Made by a program: the position numbers and the translations under genes | Shown here: positions 1,732-10,259 of the stretch, in pieces | How positions within the stretch are numbered: position 1 is the stretch's first letter | Layout of the letters: every line of letters begins with the position of its first letter | NCBI GenBank assembly: GCA_009782775.1 | Contig: WRIL01000003.1 | Location: forward strand, 1 to 64,000 | Direction of reading: 5' to 3' | DNA: 64,000 nucleotides | From: Desulfovibrionaceae bacterium | Lineage (GTDB): Bacteria > Desulfobacterota > Desulfovibrionia > Desulfovibrionales > Desulfovibrionaceae | Notes under the pieces: generated by a model | Seen by the model: the letters and a program-made list of their open reading frames with translations, nothing else | Database searches by the model: none | Told to the model about the DNA's origin: nothing

Positions 1732-4700
1732 TCACAGCATCATTAAGGCTTCGTCCACAACGCCTATGATTCCCTTGAATTGGCTATGCAGCAGGTATTC
1801 GGAGATGGTGTCCAGCAGTTCCCTGGTTGGGCGGGGCCAGGTTTTTCGTTCTATCTCGGCCAGCGCCTCCCTGGCGGCTTTTTTGTTGTAAGCCGCGCAG
1901 GCCGCCTTAAGAGCAAGCAGCTTTTCGCGCAGATAAGCCGGATCTTCATCGCCCGAACCGCCTCCAGCCTCTTCTTTGGGGGTAATCCTGACGATCAGTT
2001 CTTGTAACTCGTTCAACAGGGCCGGAGTTTGAGCAGAAATGCGCGCGGCATCCCCCTTCCGTCCGGCCTTTTCCAATTTAAGAGCTGCCGCGGCAAGCCC
2101 CGCTTCGCCGATATTGGCGAGGGCGCTTTTAAGCCCATGCACATTGATGACGTACATCCGCACATCTTCGTCATCATAGGCGCCCTGTTTTTCGCATAAC
2201 GCCTTCAAGACCTCGATGGATTTGGAGGCGTCCCGTATGAAAATTTTCGCCAATTTCGGATCCATAGCCGGCCCGCGGGACGGCTCCGGCACATCATCGC
2301 CTTTTTCAACGAAAAGGTTTTGCCCCCGGCGCGCGGCCTCAATAACTTCAGGGGGTTGCCGATCACGTATATACTTGTTCAGCAAAACATTCATATGGCG
2401 TATATCAATGGGCTTGGGGATAAAATCGTCAAACCCTTTTTCCAGGAAGATCTCTGCCTGTCCCGCCACGGCATTGGCGGTCAAGGCCACGATAGGCAAG
2501 GTGTACCCAAGATCGCGCAGCCTCCTGGTCGCCTCAAAACCGTCCATTCCCGGCATCATGTGATCCATGAACACGATGTCGTACGTCCTGCCCTGCCTGA
2601 TTTTCTCAATGGCCGCAGCCCCGCCGGTGGCGGAATCAAAAGCCAGACCATAAGGGGTCATGAGCCCCTGAGCGACATAGATGTTCGTTTCCACATCGTC
2701 AACGACCAGAACACTGCCATAGGGCATCGGCTCGCGGACGATCTGCGCCCTTTTCATGTGCGTACTGCTGTTTAGGCGAAATTGCCGCATGTTTTCCACA
2801 AGTTCCGGCCCCAACACCCCGGAACCGGATTTTTTCTGCGGCAAACGCACGGTAAAGATCGAACCCAGGCCCAATTCACTCTCCACAAAAATCTCGCCAC
2901 GCATCATCAGCACCAGACTGCGCGTGATATTCATGCCCAACCCCGTGCCTTCGGTCGCACGGTTGGCCTCCTGGTTAAAGCGGGTATATTCGTCAAAGAG
3001 CTTGGACACTTGCTCCGCCGTCATGCCTTGGCCCGTATCGCGCACCCGAAAAACCATGATGACCTCGTCCGGCGCGAGACCCTCCACGTTCCCGCTTTCG
3101 TGAGAAACAGACATGGTGACCAGCCCCTTGGCCGTGTATTTGAAGGCATTGGAAAGCACGTTGTTCAGGATCTGCTTGACGCGCAACGCATCGCCCACCA
3201 CCACCGCCGGCGTGTTTTCATCCACCCGCAGGTCAAACTCAATCTGTTTGCTGCCTATACGCATCATGTTCAGTTGCGCGGTATCGTTGATCAGGCTCAT
3301 GAGCTCGTATTCCTCTGGCACAAGTTCCAGCTTGCCCGCCTCTATTTTGGACATATCGAGGATATCGTTGATGATGCCGAGCAAAAGGTCGCTGGAACTG
3401 TGTATTCGGCCCAAGGCCTCTTTTATGCCAGATTCAAGGTTTTCGTTTTGCAGTTGAATTTCGGTAATACCCATGATGGCATTCATCGGTGTGCGTATTT
3501 CATGGCTCATGTTGGCCAGAAAAACCGATTTGGCGCGGCTGGCGACTTTAGCAGCCTCAACCGCGGTTTCCAGATCCCGTTGGAGCTTGACTGTTTCAGT
3601 CACATCGTCTGTGCTGCCTACAACGCCGATGGTTTCGCCGTCGCCATCGCGCATCGGCACCGTATAGGAGTGGAACACTCCCCCGTCTATTTCGCCTATC
3701 CAGTCCTGCGGTCCATCGCGGAAGGTCTTTTCCACGTTATCAATGATATCCAGGTGCCTGTTTTTAAGCCGAGCGATCTCCAGTTTTTTCCCTTCCAGGA
3801 AAGACGGCTCAACCCCGATGCTTTTCAAATACTGCCCGTTAAAGGTCGTGATTACACCCTTGTCGTCAACGCTCCAGATAACTCCCTTGTAATTGCCAAT
3901 TACGGCTTCCATCTTGGTGAGGGTTTGCCTCATGCGCCGCGCGATCTCGCCGCGCTGGACACTGCCCACGGCCAGCAGCCCCCACGAGCGCAGGGCATTT
4001 TCCTCGGAATCGGAAAAAACGCGCCGTCGATGGCAATCGTCAAAACTTACGAAACCCCAGAACTCGCCCCGCAGGAACAACGGGACGACCAGGAGGGACT
4101 GGAGCTGGTAGGGCGAAAAAAAACCTTGCGTGGCTTCCGGGAGGGTATCCAGAGGCCCGTTCAAAATTTCTCCCTTGGAAAGCAGCTCTTCCCAGCTCGG
4201 CAAGGTCTCCTGGTAGGAAAATTCAAATAAGCTGTCGTCCATTTTCCAGTCAGTATGCGTCCATTTGCACACCTGCCGGTAATAGAGCCTCCCGTCGTCT
4301 TTCCGGATATTTTGCCACAAATACACCCGGTCGGCCTCCAGGCAGTTGCAAAGCATTTCCATGCTGCGATTCAGCGCCCCCAGATAATCCTCCGCGCCGG
4401 ATTCCAGCAAAAGCACGGCGGCGTAATTGATTATGCCCATAATCGAATGCTGGCTGTCCAACTCTGCGGTGCGCTTCTCCAACTCTTGGGTGCGCTTGTG
4501 CACAAGGGCCTCAAGATCTCTTTCCTCACGGCGTTTTCTCTGAAATAAAACAAACAGGAGGACGAGCACGCTCCCAAGCAGGATGGATACGCCGATCAAC
4601 CACGGACGCTCCTCCCGGGCCAGCCTCCCCTGATAATCATAGGTATTGTGCACCCAATGGGCGGCTATTCCCTTTACGTCAATCATGCGCAGCGCTTTAT

Positions 4701-6216
4701 CCACTATGGAACAGAGCACGGCCTCGTCTTTATTGAATCCAAAAGTTGAGTGCGAGGCGAATTCAAAAACGATGTTGGCCTTGTAACCGGAAAATTCATG
4801 ATAATTGGTCAGGGCGAGAAGCCGGCGCTGGCTTGACATGACCATATCAATGTCGCCGCGATCCAAGGCGTTGAAAGCCTCGTCCGAGCTTTCATATTCC
4901 ACGATATTTTCATGGTTGGGAAACCAACTGCGAAACAACTCGGAATACACGGTGGCCTGGGTCAGGCCGACTTTGACATTCCTGACCTCGCTCATACTGA
5001 TATTGCGGAAATCCGACTTGGAGAGCAGGGCGTAATTATCCGACAAAAACATGGTCCTTGGCCATATGAAGCGGGCCGCCCGGTCTTCCGAATAAAGCAA
5101 TTCGGTGAGCATGGACGCTTCCCCGCTTTCAAGAATTCCCAATAAATCCGGCCACTCCGTGTACTGGTCGTTGACCCGTTCAAAGCTCAAACCAGTGAGC
5201 TTCTCCACTTCCCCGAGCACATCAAAGGCGACCCCCCGCCACTGCTTTTCATAAGTGTTGTAAAAACTGATCGGATAGTTGTAATGTTCCGCCGCAAAAC
5301 GCGCCACCGGCCGGTTATGTATATGCGCCTTCTCCTCTGCGCTAAGCTGTGTGTATAGCTTATGCCGCAAATAATCTTGCTGCCCGCGTTCATAGAGCCC
5401 GGTCAGATGGCGGGCGGCGCCGCTCTGCAGCGCTTTTTGCGCAACCGAGATAAGCGGCGCAAGTTCCGGGTTTTGCGTTGACAGGGCAACTGGGCTGTAA
5501 ATCAGCGGAAAAAAGTCTTCGGCAGCCACATCGCTATACTCGTCAAAGACAGCCGCCTCTGTGCCGCCCTTGGCGAAAATGGCATCGGCCCGCCCGTTTT
5601 TCAGCATAGCATAGGCCGCGTCAAAATTATCTATAAAGATCGTTTCAAAACGGTAAGACGCCCGCGCGGCAACGGCTTCGGCCGTGTCCGCGCCGCTCAG
5701 GAAGGCCAGACGCGGTAAACGCAAGGACGCGATATCGGCCAAGGGCACGCCATCCGCCAGACGCACATATTTCACCAGGCGTTCGGTGATGGCCCCGGTC
5801 ATGTAGCTGGTATCCGGACGTTGCTCGGCGGGCGCCAGTTCACCGGTGAAGTCAATCTCGTATCGCTCAAGGCCCGCGAGCAGATCCCCCCATCCATAAA
5901 GCGTGGGAATGAAGGAGACGCCGAAAAGTTCGGTAAGCCAGCCACAAACCAACGCGGCATACCCTCCGGTTTCGCCGTTCTCGTCAATGAAGGCCTCTGC
6001 GCCCGGAATCGCCCCGTAAACAAAAACGCGGCCTTGTTTTTGAAGAGCCTCAATGGCCCGTATTTCGCCGTCCGTCACGCCGGGAATCTCCCGGAACGAG
6101 GCATAGGTCACGGTTTCGCGCTGTCGTTTCGCGGCGGATTTTTCGCAGCCCGAAAACACAAACGGCAGAAGCAGGACGGCCAACGTCACGCACAGTATCC
6201 GCAAGATCGTTCGCAT
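1732..6216 (-). CDS. Hybrid sensor histidine kinase with two periplasmic solute-binding sensor domains, GAF, PAS, receiver and Hpt
   Basis: A 1494-residue membrane sensor kinase of the BvgS/EvgS-like type. Reading order: a lipoprotein-like signal (hydrophobic stretch ending FSGC, residues about 5-25); two tandem SBP_bac_3 ligand-binding domains (about 55-290 and 295-545); one membrane segment (about 555-580); a short coiled coil; a GAF domain (about 620-775); a PAS domain (about 785-900); HisKA with SHEIRTPMNAIMG; HATPase with GTGLGMNIT; a receiver domain (VLVVDDVET, acceptor Asp in IVFMDHMMPGMDG, PKPID); and a C-terminal Hpt with histidine in VHGLKSAL. A His-Asp-His phosphorelay is expected. 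I prefer ATG 6216, preceded by GGAG six bases upstream, over the TTG four codons earlier. A lipobox before a transmembrane kinase is unusual. The nearest upstream same-strand signalling gene is the HD-GYP regulator at 7566-8633, a likely relay partner. Confidence 0.9.
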   Translation of the reverse strand: MRTILRILCVTLAVLLLPFVFSGCEKSAAKRQRETVTYASFREIPGVTDGEIRAIEALQKQGRVFVYGAIPGAEAFIDENGETGGYAALVCGWLTELFGVSFIPTLYGWGDLLAGLERYEIDFTGELAPAEQRPDTSYMTGAITERLVKYVRLADGVPLADIASLRLPRLAFLSGADTAEAVAARASYRFETIFIDNFDAAYAMLKNGRADAIFAKGGTEAAVFDEYSDVAAEDFFPLIYSPVALSTQNPELAPLISVAQKALQSGAARHLTGLYERGQQDYLRHKLYTQLSAEEKAHIHNRPVARFAAEHYNYPISFYNTYEKQWRGVAFDVLGEVEKLTGLSFERVNDQYTEWPDLLGILESGEASMLTELLYSEDRAARFIWPRTMFLSDNYALLSKSDFRNISMSEVRNVKVGLTQATVYSELFRSWFPNHENIVEYESSDEAFNALDRGDIDMVMSSQRRLLALTNYHEFSGYKANIVFEFASHSTFGFNKDEAVLCSIVDKALRMIDVKGIAAHWVHNTYDYQGRLAREERPWLIGVSILLGSVLVLLFVLFQRKRREERDLEALVHKRTQELEKRTAELDSQHSIMGIINYAAVLLLESGAEDYLGALNRSMEMLCNCLEADRVYLWQNIRKDDGRLYYRQVCKWTHTDWKMDDSLFEFSYQETLPSWEELLSKGEILNGPLDTLPEATQGFFSPYQLQSLLVVPLFLRGEFWGFVSFDDCHRRRVFSDSEENALRSWGLLAVGSVQRGEIARRMRQTLTKMEAVIGNYKGVIWSVDDKGVITTFNGQYLKSIGVEPSFLEGKKLEIARLKNRHLDIIDNVEKTFRDGPQDWIGEIDGGVFHSYTVPMRDGDGETIGVVGSTDDVTETVKLQRDLETAVEAAKVASRAKSVFLANMSHEIRTPMNAIMGITEIQLQNENLESGIKEALGRIHSSSDLLLGIINDILDMSKIEAGKLELVPEEYELMSLINDTAQLNMMRIGSKQIEFDLRVDENTPAVVVGDALRVKQILNNVLSNAFKYTAKGLVTMSVSHESGNVEGLAPDEVIMVFRVRDTGQGMTAEQVSKLFDEYTRFNQEANRATEGTGLGMNITRSLVLMMRGEIFVESELGLGSIFTVRLPQKKSGSGVLGPELVENMRQFRLNSSTHMKRAQIVREPMPYGSVLVVDDVETNIYVAQGLMTPYGLAFDSATGGAAAIEKIRQGRTYDIVFMDHMMPGMDGFEATRRLRDLGYTLPIVALTANAVAGQAEIFLEKGFDDFIPKPIDIRHMNVLLNKYIRDRQPPEVIEAARRGQNLFVEKGDDVPEPSRGPAMDPKLAKIFIRDASKSIEVLKALCEKQGAYDDEDVRMYVINVHGLKSALANIGEAGLAAAALKLEKAGRKGDAARISAQTPALLNELQELIVRITPKEEAGGGSGDEDPAYLREKLLALKAACAAYNKKAAREALAEIERKTWPRPTRELLDTISEYLLHSQFKGIIGVVDEALMML

Positions 6217-6259
6217 ACGTGTCTCCAAACCTTCTTACGCCATAAGCCATGCTTTATTT

Positions 6260-6276
6260 AGGCTGTATCACAGTAA
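6260..6276 (+). repeat. Left terminal inverted repeat of the 1.3-kb segment
   Basis: AGGCTGTATCACAGTAA, 17 bases, matching the complement of 7549-7565 with one mismatch (A/G at position 8). It lies 43 bases upstream of the hybrid kinase start codon, so the insertion separates that gene from its original upstream sequence. The GGCTGTRTC terminus resembles the ends of several transposase-dependent insertion sequences. Confidence 0.6.
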
Positions 6277-6380
6277 ATGGCGCACACAACGACAAAGCGT
6301 TGACTTTACTGGTTATTTTCAAATTTTTCTGTTACGCTCGGGGTAACTCTCTGTTACATTTAATTACGTTATAAAAACAG

Positions 6381-7139
6381 CTAAAACAATTGGGGGTCAT
6401 TTATATGCTGAATAAATTCGCCCATAATGCTTTTTACCGTGATGTGGTGATTATGATTACCCCACTCTTTGGCCAGATTATTCTTGCTTTGTCTGGCTTT
6501 TCTATTTTTGACGCGGCGTTCAACAGCAAACGCGGGATCCGCCATCGCCCAGTGAGCGCCAAGCAACCCGACAGGAGATACTGTTAACGAGGTGGAAAAT
6601 TCGATTTTATGGCAGCCGACAGTCCAGTGCATATCCAGGCCTTTGCGCGCCAGAATTGGCTTATTGTACCAGGCATTTTCTCCTTCCGTGACGTTAGGAT
6701 CGCCGTGTCTGCGTTGCGGCACGGGATACATATCCGGATCAAGATCTGTGTCGTATGCGTGGCGGTATACTTGGTACAGCCTCACATAAAATAGGTCGTA
6801 TTTCGGATGGGCTGCCAAAAACATGTTAACGTCATAGCAAAAATTTTCGTTTGTCTTATAAAACACAAATTCGTCGGCATCAACACACAGTACCCAATCA
6901 CATTGTGTTTGTTTATACTGTGCGTTTAGAAGATCTCTTTTCTGTCCACTATCCATCATATCAGGGAATTGAAATGGTATAACATGGACATTATGGCAAG
7001 TTTTTACTATTTCAAGAGTATTATCCGTTGTATCGGAATCATATAACAATGTAATTTTGTCGGCATATGAGTAATGTTTCAAAAAAAATGGAGCCAGAAA
7101 CGCTTCATTATACCACATGGTCAGTATTTCAAGCGACAT
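6381..7139 (-). CDS. Glycosyltransferase, family 2-like (GT-A fold)
   Basis: A 252-residue protein with an A+T-rich gene that stands out from its neighbours. The N-terminus (SLEILTMWYNEAFLAPFF) is typical of family-2-like transferases that begin with the nucleotide-sugar binding strand. It is followed by LLYDSDTTDNTLEIV and by the metal-binding acidic motif CVDADEF (about residues 85-91) in the place of a DxD motif. No membrane segment is evident, so it should be cytosolic or peripheral. AAGGA lies about eight bases before the ATG. It is the only gene inside the inverted-repeat-bounded segment, isolated from any polysaccharide operon, which suggests acquisition as cargo. The sugar donor and acceptor cannot be inferred. 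Confidence 0.75.
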   Translation of the reverse strand: MSLEILTMWYNEAFLAPFFLKHYSYADKITLLYDSDTTDNTLEIVKTCHNVHVIPFQFPDMMDSGQKRDLLNAQYKQTQCDWVLCVDADEFVFYKTNENFCYDVNMFLAAHPKYDLFYVRLYQVYRHAYDTDLDPDMYPVPQRRHGDPNVTEGENAWYNKPILARKGLDMHWTVGCHKIEFSTSLTVSPVGLLGAHWAMADPAFAVERRVKNRKARQSKNNLAKEWGNHNHHITVKSIMGEFIQHINDPQLF

Positions 7140-7548
7140 GGTTTTTTCCTTAAGTTCCGAACTGCATGTGACCTTAAAACCGTTCTGACGGCATAGGACC
7201 TTACTAACTTACCCCATGTCCTCCGTCAATGTCGGCACTTCAACCATTCCTCACCGGTCATCACCATAAAAATTTTTCTAGACTTTGATTTTGTTGAATT
7301 TATCGTTCAGGTTAGTCCAGGAAGTAAAACCTAACCCGCCGATAGTGCCCCGGTTTGAACGGGGGCGATGCCAGCAGCCCGTCTTTGGAAACATTTTTAC
7401 TTCTGGCGGATGCGCCCGACGTGGACGCGGGGAGTGGTTTAGTAAAATCAGAAGCAAAATGGCCCATTTTCAAAGCCATAGCAAAAACAACTGATCTAAC
7501 TGCGAAGTCAGCCAGTGAAAAATAATGAAAATTTAGGCGACCAATCGC
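7140..7548. other. About 400 bases without a clear gene upstream of the glycosyltransferase
   Basis: This lies inside the inverted-repeat-bounded segment and should include the promoter of the minus-strand glycosyltransferase. A short minus-strand frame at 7312-7479 (55 codons, starting MALKMGHFASDF) has no recognisable family and no convincing ribosome binding site. A small hairpin, CCCCG at 7348-7352 pairing with CGGGG at 7360-7364, has no following T-run. No transposase motif was found in any frame I read. Confidence 0.4.
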
Positions 7549-7565
7549 TTACTGTGACACAGCCT
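7549..7565 (-). repeat. Right terminal inverted repeat of the 1.3-kb segment
   Basis: TTACTGTGACACAGCCT, inverted copy of 6260-6276 with one mismatch. It ends one base before the stop codon (7566-7568, minus strand) of the HD-GYP gene. Confidence 0.6.
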
Positions 7566-8633
7566 CTATTTATGCGTATTTACATCATGTAAAACAGGCG
7601 CTTCGTGGATGTACGCATGCAGCACCTCGCTGAAGCGCTCTTTTACCCCGGAAAACGCCTCCACAATCAAAGGGTCGAACATTTTGCCGGCATTGTCCAG
7701 GATCAGGCCGATCACTTCTTTTTCCGTGAAAGCCTTTTTGTAATAAGGCCGATCCGAAAGAAGAGCGTCGTACAGGTCGGCTATTGCCAAAATGCGTCCT
7801 TGGAGCGGAATATTCATTTCTTTCAAGCCGCGCGGATAACCCGAACCATCCCAACGTTCGTGATGGCTGCCCGCAAATAATTTGGCGTTGTGCAAAAACG
7901 CAAGATCGCCTATACGGGCGAGGACCTTTTCAATAATCCGCTCGCCCGCGACCGTGTGCGTCTTAACCATTTCAAATTCTTCCAGGGTCAGCGCCCCGAG
8001 CTTGTTCAATATCGTATCCGGAATGGCCAGTTTGCCCACATCGTGCAGACGCGCCGCCGAAGTGAAGGTCTCTAGGTCCAGGGCGCTTATTTCATCGGCA
8101 TAAATTCCACGCTCCACCATCTCACTCGTTAATATCCTGACATACTCCGAGGTGCGTTCGATATGCCCACCCGTCGCCTTGTCGCGATTCTCGACAATAT
8201 CCGCCAGAATGAACACCAAGCCGTTGCGCAACCGCTCCAGTTCCGCCGTCCGTTCACGGATCAGACCCTCGATATTCAGATGGCTTCTGATGCGGTTTTG
8301 TAGCACAGGCGCGGAAAAAGGTTTGGCGATGAAATCCGTCACCCCCATTTCAAAACCCTTGGCTTCCACGGCAGCGTCCACCATGCTGGTCAGAAAAACG
8401 ACCGGGATATCCCTGTATTCTTCATGTTCCTTTAAAGACCGCAAGGCCTCAAAACCGTCCATAACGGGCATTTCAATGTCCAGCAGGATCAAGTCCGGGA
8501 TTACTTCTTCCAAAAGCTCAAACATGGCCGCCGCGGAGGGCAGGGTCATCATCTGGTATTGTTCTTCAAGGGCTTGCTCCGCCGTGGACAGGTTGGTATC
8601 GTTGTCGTCCACCACAAAGATTGTTTTCGGCAT
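7566..8633 (-). CDS. Response regulator with HD-GYP domain (cyclic di-GMP phosphodiesterase)
   Basis: A 355-residue cytosolic two-component output protein. The receiver domain (about 1-120) has VDDND at the N-terminus, the phosphoacceptor aspartate in LILLDIEMPVMDG, and KPFSAP. The HD-GYP domain (about 145-335) carries the metal motif LHDVGKLAIPD, HHERWDGSGYPRG and a downstream DLYDALLSDRPYY segment, all expected of active enzymes that hydrolyse cyclic di-GMP. An AAGGGA ribosome binding site precedes the ATG. Removing the inverted-repeat segment just downstream would leave the hybrid kinase start about 40 bases after this stop codon, so the two probably formed one operon and may form a signalling pair. 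A divergent gene starts 285 bases upstream. Confidence 0.93.
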   Translation of the reverse strand: MPKTIFVVDDNDTNLSTAEQALEEQYQMMTLPSAAAMFELLEEVIPDLILLDIEMPVMDGFEALRSLKEHEEYRDIPVVFLTSMVDAAVEAKGFEMGVTDFIAKPFSAPVLQNRIRSHLNIEGLIRERTAELERLRNGLVFILADIVENRDKATGGHIERTSEYVRILTSEMVERGIYADEISALDLETFTSAARLHDVGKLAIPDTILNKLGALTLEEFEMVKTHTVAGERIIEKVLARIGDLAFLHNAKLFAGSHHERWDGSGYPRGLKEMNIPLQGRILAIADLYDALLSDRPYYKKAFTEKEVIGLILDNAGKMFDPLIVEAFSGVKERFSEVLHAYIHEAPVLHDVNTHK

Positions 8634-8918: not shown

Positions 8919-10259
8919 ATGCACAACAGATTTGCCGAACTGCTTGACAACTGGCCCGCCTATACACAAAAAATCGGCGAACTATACGTGCGTTTGGGCG
9001 AACTGTTGACGGATTTAGGCATAAACCGAAGCGATGTCCGGATAATAGCCTTTATCAGCAGCGCCTGGCGCGGCGAACTCATGTTTTATGATTCAAATGG
9101 AATTTCAGGAAGTTCACAGCAATACTTGAAAACAGATGATAAACATACAGATGAAGAACATCTTATAAAATTATTTGATATTAAAGCTGAACATACGTTA
9201 TTAAATTTAGAAAGCAATGCTGACGATCTTAAATCATATGATGAATTTGGTATTATTAATCACGGACATGAAAATATCTGCGCATATGGCATAATAATAC
9301 AATATCCTCAACTTGAATCTTCGAAAATTATCTTTGAATTATTAAATCAAATAAGTTTGTTTTGCAAAAATGTCTTAGATAATGAAAATTTTGTAATTGA
9401 AGAATATATGTTGTCAAATATTGTCTACGTCTCCCTTAAAAAACAAATAGACATAGATTTTTATAACACCCTGGCGTCAAGCCCATATGAAAAAAAAGTT
9501 GCGTCCGGAGGGATATTACTGGCAAACGCAGAACAGGACTATGACTTGAAATTAAGCTTTAACGAGACATACCCGCTAGAAGTTAAAAATGTTAAACAAA
9601 TACGAAAATTACTTGAGATGACTACCGACAAAATATTTTTGGTATCAAAAGACGGTCATGCCATAGGTGTGAGTGATTATATAAATTCAGACGATAATTT
9701 TGAATTATTTATATTCAATGGGCATCAGAGATGGTCTTATTATAAAAATGGCAAAGAACTTTTGTCATATAAAGAAGGTAAATACACTTTTGTTTTTGAA
9801 AGCAATAATAACTTTGTTTCTTACTTTCCAAATGGTTTCATAAATAAAAATAATTATGGATATTTAAATATTATTTTGCATGAAATAAAACAACTCAGAC
9901 ATGGAACATTATTGATAATTTCAGATGACGCGCAATCTGAAGTTGAACGGTTATGTATGCTAAGAAGGGGCTATTCCATAAAACCTGTTGATTTTAAGCT
10001 GCCTGTAAACAGATATTTACTATCAAGCATTACATCAATAGATGGCGCAGTATTCCTTGACACAAATTTTATTTGCCACGGAATAGGAATGATTCTGGAT
10101 GGCGTCGCCGTTAAGACCGGCGTGAGCGAACGCGGTGCAAGATATAACTCGGCGCAATGCTACATCGACAATAAACCTAATGAAAAATTCACCGCCGTGG
10201 TTGTTTCTGACGATGAAATCATAGATATACTTTATAATAAAAAACAAAGCGCGCCATAA
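8919..10259 (+). CDS. DisA_N/DAC-like protein, candidate cyclic dinucleotide synthase with atypical active site
   Basis: A 446-residue cytosolic protein. The last 120 residues resemble the diadenylate cyclase (DAC, DisA_N) fold: LRHGTLLIIS, then IDGAVFLDTNFICHG matching the DGA motif, then SERGARYNSAQ where classical enzymes have GTRHR, then AVVVSDDE resembling the VVSEE strand. The RHR triad is thus replaced by R-Y-N, so activity and product are uncertain. The first 300 residues match nothing I recognise and may be a sensor region. The ATG has AGAGGA upstream. Base composition is mosaic: the first 60 and last 60 codons are G+C-rich, the middle (about 9090-10080) is strongly A+T-rich. It is divergent from the HD-GYP gene, placing two nucleotide-second-messenger proteins side by side. 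It could also be a non-catalytic nucleotide-binding protein. Confidence 0.6.
   Translation: MHNRFAELLDNWPAYTQKIGELYVRLGELLTDLGINRSDVRIIAFISSAWRGELMFYDSNGISGSSQQYLKTDDKHTDEEHLIKLFDIKAEHTLLNLESNADDLKSYDEFGIINHGHENICAYGIIIQYPQLESSKIIFELLNQISLFCKNVLDNENFVIEEYMLSNIVYVSLKKQIDIDFYNTLASSPYEKKVASGGILLANAEQDYDLKLSFNETYPLEVKNVKQIRKLLEMTTDKIFLVSKDGHAIGVSDYINSDDNFELFIFNGHQRWSYYKNGKELLSYKEGKYTFVFESNNNFVSYFPNGFINKNNYGYLNIILHEIKQLRHGTLLIISDDAQSEVERLCMLRRGYSIKPVDFKLPVNRYLLSSITSIDGAVFLDTNFICHGIGMILDGVAVKTGVSERGARYNSAQCYIDNKPNEKFTAVVVSDDEIIDILYNKKQSAP

Follow-up and report, generated by a model that had tools for sequence, protein, structure and literature searches.

A 1,304-bp segment of the 64-kb window (the whole stretch of DNA that was analysed) is very probably a mobile insertion cassette, a kind of non-autonomous transposable element, presumed to be mobilised in trans. 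It is bounded by IS-type terminal inverted repeats and a target-site duplication, it carries one intact passenger gene between two intact neighbours, and its ends recur in a family of MITEs in a related genome. With such ends and a passenger gene unaccompanied by a transposase, the segment agrees with how mobile insertion cassettes are defined. The features concerned are listed here by their positions in the window.

1732-6228, minus strand: hybrid sensor kinase with periplasmic SBP_bac_3, GAF, HisKA, HATPase and receiver domains and a weak Hpt domain
6253-6260, no strand: left copy of the target duplication, TTTATTTA, matching 7565-7572 at 7/8 positions
6261-7564, no strand: whole cassette, 1,304 bp, single copy in the genome
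6261-6276, plus strand: left terminal inverted repeat, GGCTGTATCACAGTAA, 15/16 against the right end
6381-7139, minus strand: intact family-2-like glycosyltransferase, 252 aa, PF13704 (Glyco_tranf_2_4), E = 7.8e-11
7140-7548, no strand: non-coding stretch upstream of the glycosyltransferase, with no transposase, Rfam or fold signal
7549-7564, minus strand: right terminal inverted repeat, GGCTGTGTCACAGTAA, with GCGATTG adjoining it on the inner side
7565-7572, no strand: right copy of the target duplication, TCTATTTA, holding the regulator stop codon
7566-8633, minus strand: response regulator with an HD-GYP-type HD domain, 355 aa, now ending His-Lys-TAG

The cassette and its insertion site

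The initial annotation had proposed an inverted-repeat-bounded cassette of 1.3 kb; the element is real, and its limits, as read from the sequence, are corrected to 6261-7564. The ends are 16-nt terminal inverted repeats identical at 15 of 16 positions, and addition of the outer base gives the 17-mer pair 6260-6276/7549-7565, which indeed matches at 16 of 17 positions. The TATTT duplication suggested at the same time is better read as the inner part of an 8-bp target duplication, TTTATTTA/TCTATTTA, lying directly outside the GG...CC tips and agreeing at 7/8 positions; its length of 8 bp is backed by the 8-bp duplications at MITEs with the same ends, described below. The G+C content is 0.43 in the cassette, compared with 0.52 and 0.55 in its two neighbours and 0.57 in the window. 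In the host genome (1.74 Mb in 36 contigs, 84.6% complete) the cassette occurs once. The same repeats and gene order in distantly related genomes, which had been named as grounds for abandoning this interpretation, were not encountered: the cassette was absent from 98 other related genomes, and it gave no match in plasmid and phage collections.

When the flanks are joined, the regulator gene regains the predicted His-Lys-TAA end (...ACG CAT AAA TAA), and the kinase ATG falls 37 nt past that stop, close to the 40 bases or so that had been anticipated. This ATG, at 6216 behind a GGAG, is a likelier start than the TTG of the kinase ORF as listed. With the cassette in place, 1.35 kb separate the kinase start from the regulator stop, as against 37 nt without it. 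The duplicated target includes the regulator stop codon, which has changed from TAA to TAG and leaves the protein untruncated. Insertion at a stop codon has left both neighbours intact, yet has parted the regulator from its probable kinase.

The earlier proposal that the cassette sits between two signalling genes is supported: the regulator and kinase genes share one strand, and the regulator is untruncated. Of the closer kinases, the two nearest with a readable upstream neighbourhood (L136 and L148) are preceded by other genes, which lends no backing to an old operon (L135 and L137, near contig ends, were left out of this comparison). As for the empty site that was to be looked for, L139 and L149 in G122 and L141 in G574, all from a sister genus, each have a related regulator gene followed directly by that of a related kinase; at about 40-44% identity, these three loci show the arrangement and not the same locus.

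Two other parts of the window deserve mention. A phage-type integrase gene lies directly before a tRNA-Arg gene (518-1705, with the tRNA gene at 1629-1705), a spot that is a possible island attachment site. The gene at 8919-10259 has DACNH and DisA-type DAC domains and a G+C content of 0.34, against 0.57 for the window; it is probably foreign and possibly encodes a diadenylate cyclase.

Recurrence of the ends in a MITE family

Taken by itself, a 16-nt inverted repeat is weak evidence in this window. Counting 16-nt inverted repeats with at most one mismatch that span 500-3000 bp, we obtained 26 in the real window (a raw count that includes overlapping ones) and 0-12 in 30 dinucleotide shuffles. 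Since repeats of such length are not rare here, the repeat alone is insufficient for the claim, which is carried by the independent recurrence of the ends elsewhere. Their absence from the rest of the genome had been put forward as an argument against the cassette; at one mismatch or fewer, the genome has two more sites of the 16-mer end (reversed control, 0). Both copies are single and unpaired (L003:1501-1516 on contig C18 and L004:1501-1516 on contig C24), one of them directly upstream of a thymidylate kinase gene and the other between lepA-like and rpsB-like genes.

A longer pattern, GGCTNTGTCACAGTAANNGATTG with at most two mismatches, extended to the GATTG of the right end, was searched in 288 genomes of the family and gave 15 sites in four of them (nine in G117, three in G036, two in the own genome and one in G662), compared with none in the control. 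Most of the sites in G117, a relative from the same family, are ends of a MITE of about 158 bp, present there in at least 17 copies or large parts within 2.04 Mb, and the MITE ends are the cassette ends (consensus GGCTCTGTCATAGCAAATGATTG). These elements were collected from loci L161, L164, L166-L171, L182, L201, L203, L207, L217 and L226 and further from L233, L237, L241, L253, L260, L266, L269, L275 and L281, some of which overlap; the family has GGCTCTGTCAYAG ends and A+T-rich 8-bp duplications. The 8-mers flanking 19 examined copies match at 8/8 positions in five cases and at 7/8 in two, so that 7/19 agree at seven or more positions, versus 1.7% of randomly re-paired flanks. On a matrix built from 36 G117 MITE ends, the right end of the cassette is the best site in the 64 kb, with 25.2 bits (runner-up, 14.6). 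The left end, with weaker inner bases, scores 9.6 bits and agrees with the MITE ends over the outer 16 nt or so only. The MITE flanks and the matrix test together indicate that these are the ends of a family of transposable elements that duplicate 8 bp on insertion, and the window element shows this geometry of ends and duplication too.

Farther afield, a phylum-wide scan with the 16-mer added one genome, which holds a single site. The 16-mer matches in IMG/VR were seemingly unrelated single sites, several of them repeated in one contig, with no extended ends, and the longer pattern was absent from that collection; matches to the ends or to the MITE in plasmid and phage collections were short and probably spurious.

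Two readings that dispense with transposition have to be weighed against these data. An ordinary horizontally acquired gene caught inside a chance inverted repeat would agree with the abundance of such repeats in the window, and the low G+C alone points to foreign origin. This is nevertheless highly improbable, as elements with these ends form a MITE family with 8-bp duplications, the 7/8 duplication falls exactly at the tip positions, and joining the flanks gives back tidy gene ends. The ends might also be regulator-binding palindromes (CTGTGWCACAG) and not transposon tips, an idea suggested by the 11-bp palindrome held in the tip and by the lone copy that directly precedes the thymidylate kinase gene; however, in the MITEs both tips bear the motif, the outermost bases are nearly always GG, and many copies are flanked by 8-bp duplications, so that we give this idea very little credence.

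The passenger gene and the search for a transposase

The glycosyltransferase is the sole recognisable gene in the cassette, as had been stated, and it is intact: it retains a DADE (DxD-type) motif and the residues that are invariant in its two nearest relatives. The nearest genomic relative, 64% identical, belongs to a Desulfovibrio MAG (L013), where it follows a radical-SAM gene and lacks the cassette ends; the next, at 37%, comes from a Geobacter MAG, and relatives at 44-48% occur on viral contigs. A search of 148 other related genomes gave no close relative (E <= 1e-20). Upstream of the gene, the 425 bp of non-coding sequence have no transposase similarity in any frame, in keeping with the earlier remark that no transposase was visible, and gave no Rfam match and no significant RNA fold. 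A radical-SAM remnant and a decayed transposase were both sought upstream of the gene and were absent.

Transposases of the IS1595 family (PF12762, DDE_Tnp_IS1595) were searched in the own genome and 149 relatives, and those of the ISL3 family (PF01610) in 59 genomes. PF12762 is absent from the element and from the own genome, which is 84.6% complete, and PF01610 is absent from the own genome. The own genome yielded no full-length element with a transposase such as was to be sought, and the 2.04 Mb read from G117 yielded neither such an element nor an autonomous partner of the MITE. The ISL3 family was set aside: the readable ISL3 ends of relatives are mostly GGTTCTTC-like and none resembles those in the window. 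Like the cassette, complete elements of the IS1595 family in relatives combine GG tips with A+T-rich duplications of 8 bp (at L045, GGGGCTGTACCAGATAAC with AACTTTAT); as to the repeat sequences known from this family, the cassette ends show a partial likeness to GGGGCTGTACYAGA only.

Membership of the IS1595 family, a refinement of the mobile-cassette interpretation that would name the transposase, is a possibility that we view with some doubt. It draws on the tips and duplications just mentioned, on ISApl4 with its GGGGCTGTACTAGA and its 8-bp repeats rich in A/T (PMC12561309), and on the passenger genes on record in transporter ISs (PMC3129680, citing the IS1595 paper); against it, the cassette ends are unlike the IS1595 ends recovered from relatives, the own genome has no DDE_Tnp_IS1595 gene, and 2.04 Mb of G117 hold no full-length element. 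A variant that differs on origin supposes a degenerate or transporter IS whose own transposase was deleted, leaving the 425-bp stretch. This would make sense of a stretch otherwise without explanation and of the lack of an autonomous partner in the own genome and 2.04 Mb of G117, but that stretch is devoid of transposase similarity in every frame and both cassette ends are still well preserved, so that we hold such an origin to be unlikely. Only tentatively do we suggest a new non-autonomous family in this Desulfovibrio-like bacterial family, marked by 8-bp duplications and by ends of the GGCTSTGTCAYAG...GATTG kind, spreading as MITEs of about 158 bp and as cassettes with surface-sugar or other accessory genes, and served by a transposase whose family is undescribed or untypical.

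For a mobile insertion cassette, the following course can be envisaged. Terminal repeats of the GGCTSTGTCAYAG...GATTG kind, flanking the single glycosyltransferase gene, would be bound by a transposase supplied in trans from a full-length element with the same ends. The cassette would have entered an A+T-rich 8-mer at the regulator stop codon, with duplication of the 8 bp, leaving the genes on either side intact and moving the kinase start away from the regulator stop. The glycosyltransferase gene, which runs in the same direction as the operon, may be transcribed along with it, and a putative effect on signalling could follow. The initial annotation had likewise viewed the gene as cargo moved in trans: a cargo gene between transposon-type ends is what is found, and the movement in trans is what we infer, given that no cognate transposase was detected in the own genome or in 2.04 Mb of G117. 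This result counts against the preferred interpretation, as do the single mismatch in the duplication, the short match of the left end and the other genes that precede kinases L136 and L148.

Relation to known mobile elements

Mobile insertion cassettes are known from MIC231 of Bacillus cereus, in the IS231/IS4 family (Chen 1999; De Palmenaer 2004; both as cited in PMC6542083, PMC2266710 and PMC3129680). MIC231-type cassettes share with the window element IS-type terminal repeats, a passenger gene, the lack of a transposase and a presumed mobilisation in trans, and differ from it in their ends and in their cargo, which here is a glycosyltransferase gene. The IS1595 family, as represented by ISApl4 (PMC12561309), shares the GG tips and the A+T-rich 8-bp duplications and, on record for the family, the carriage of passenger genes; in contrast, the window repeat is GGCTGTGTCACAGTAA where ISApl4 has GGGGCTGTACTAGA, and the own genome has no IS1595 transposase. 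The G117 elements (about 158 bp, with the cassette ends and 8-bp duplications) are a MITE family like those of other bacteria, whereas the window element, at 1.3 kb and with a gene, has the ends alone in common with them. In the qnrS2 mobile insertion cassette of Aeromonas plasmid pAC3 (PMC5444012), too, a gene cassette is tied to a MITE family that also occurs alone, although there the cargo is a resistance gene on a plasmid and here a chromosomal glycosyltransferase gene.

The cassette ends gave no match in the papers and sequence collections that were searched. The element is of a known kind, and its end family, with the matching MITEs in related bacteria, is apparently undescribed. It is a compact example of a lone gene for a surface-sugar enzyme that is apparently mobile without a transposase of its own, and the ends that it shares with the MITEs allow the relation between MITEs and gene cassettes to be studied within one bacterial group. 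A second gene cassette is possibly present in G036, where three end-like sites lie within 714 bp (L012:1410-2123) around a 107-bp miniature element and an ORF of 169 aa that belongs to no known family; this region has no clear duplication.
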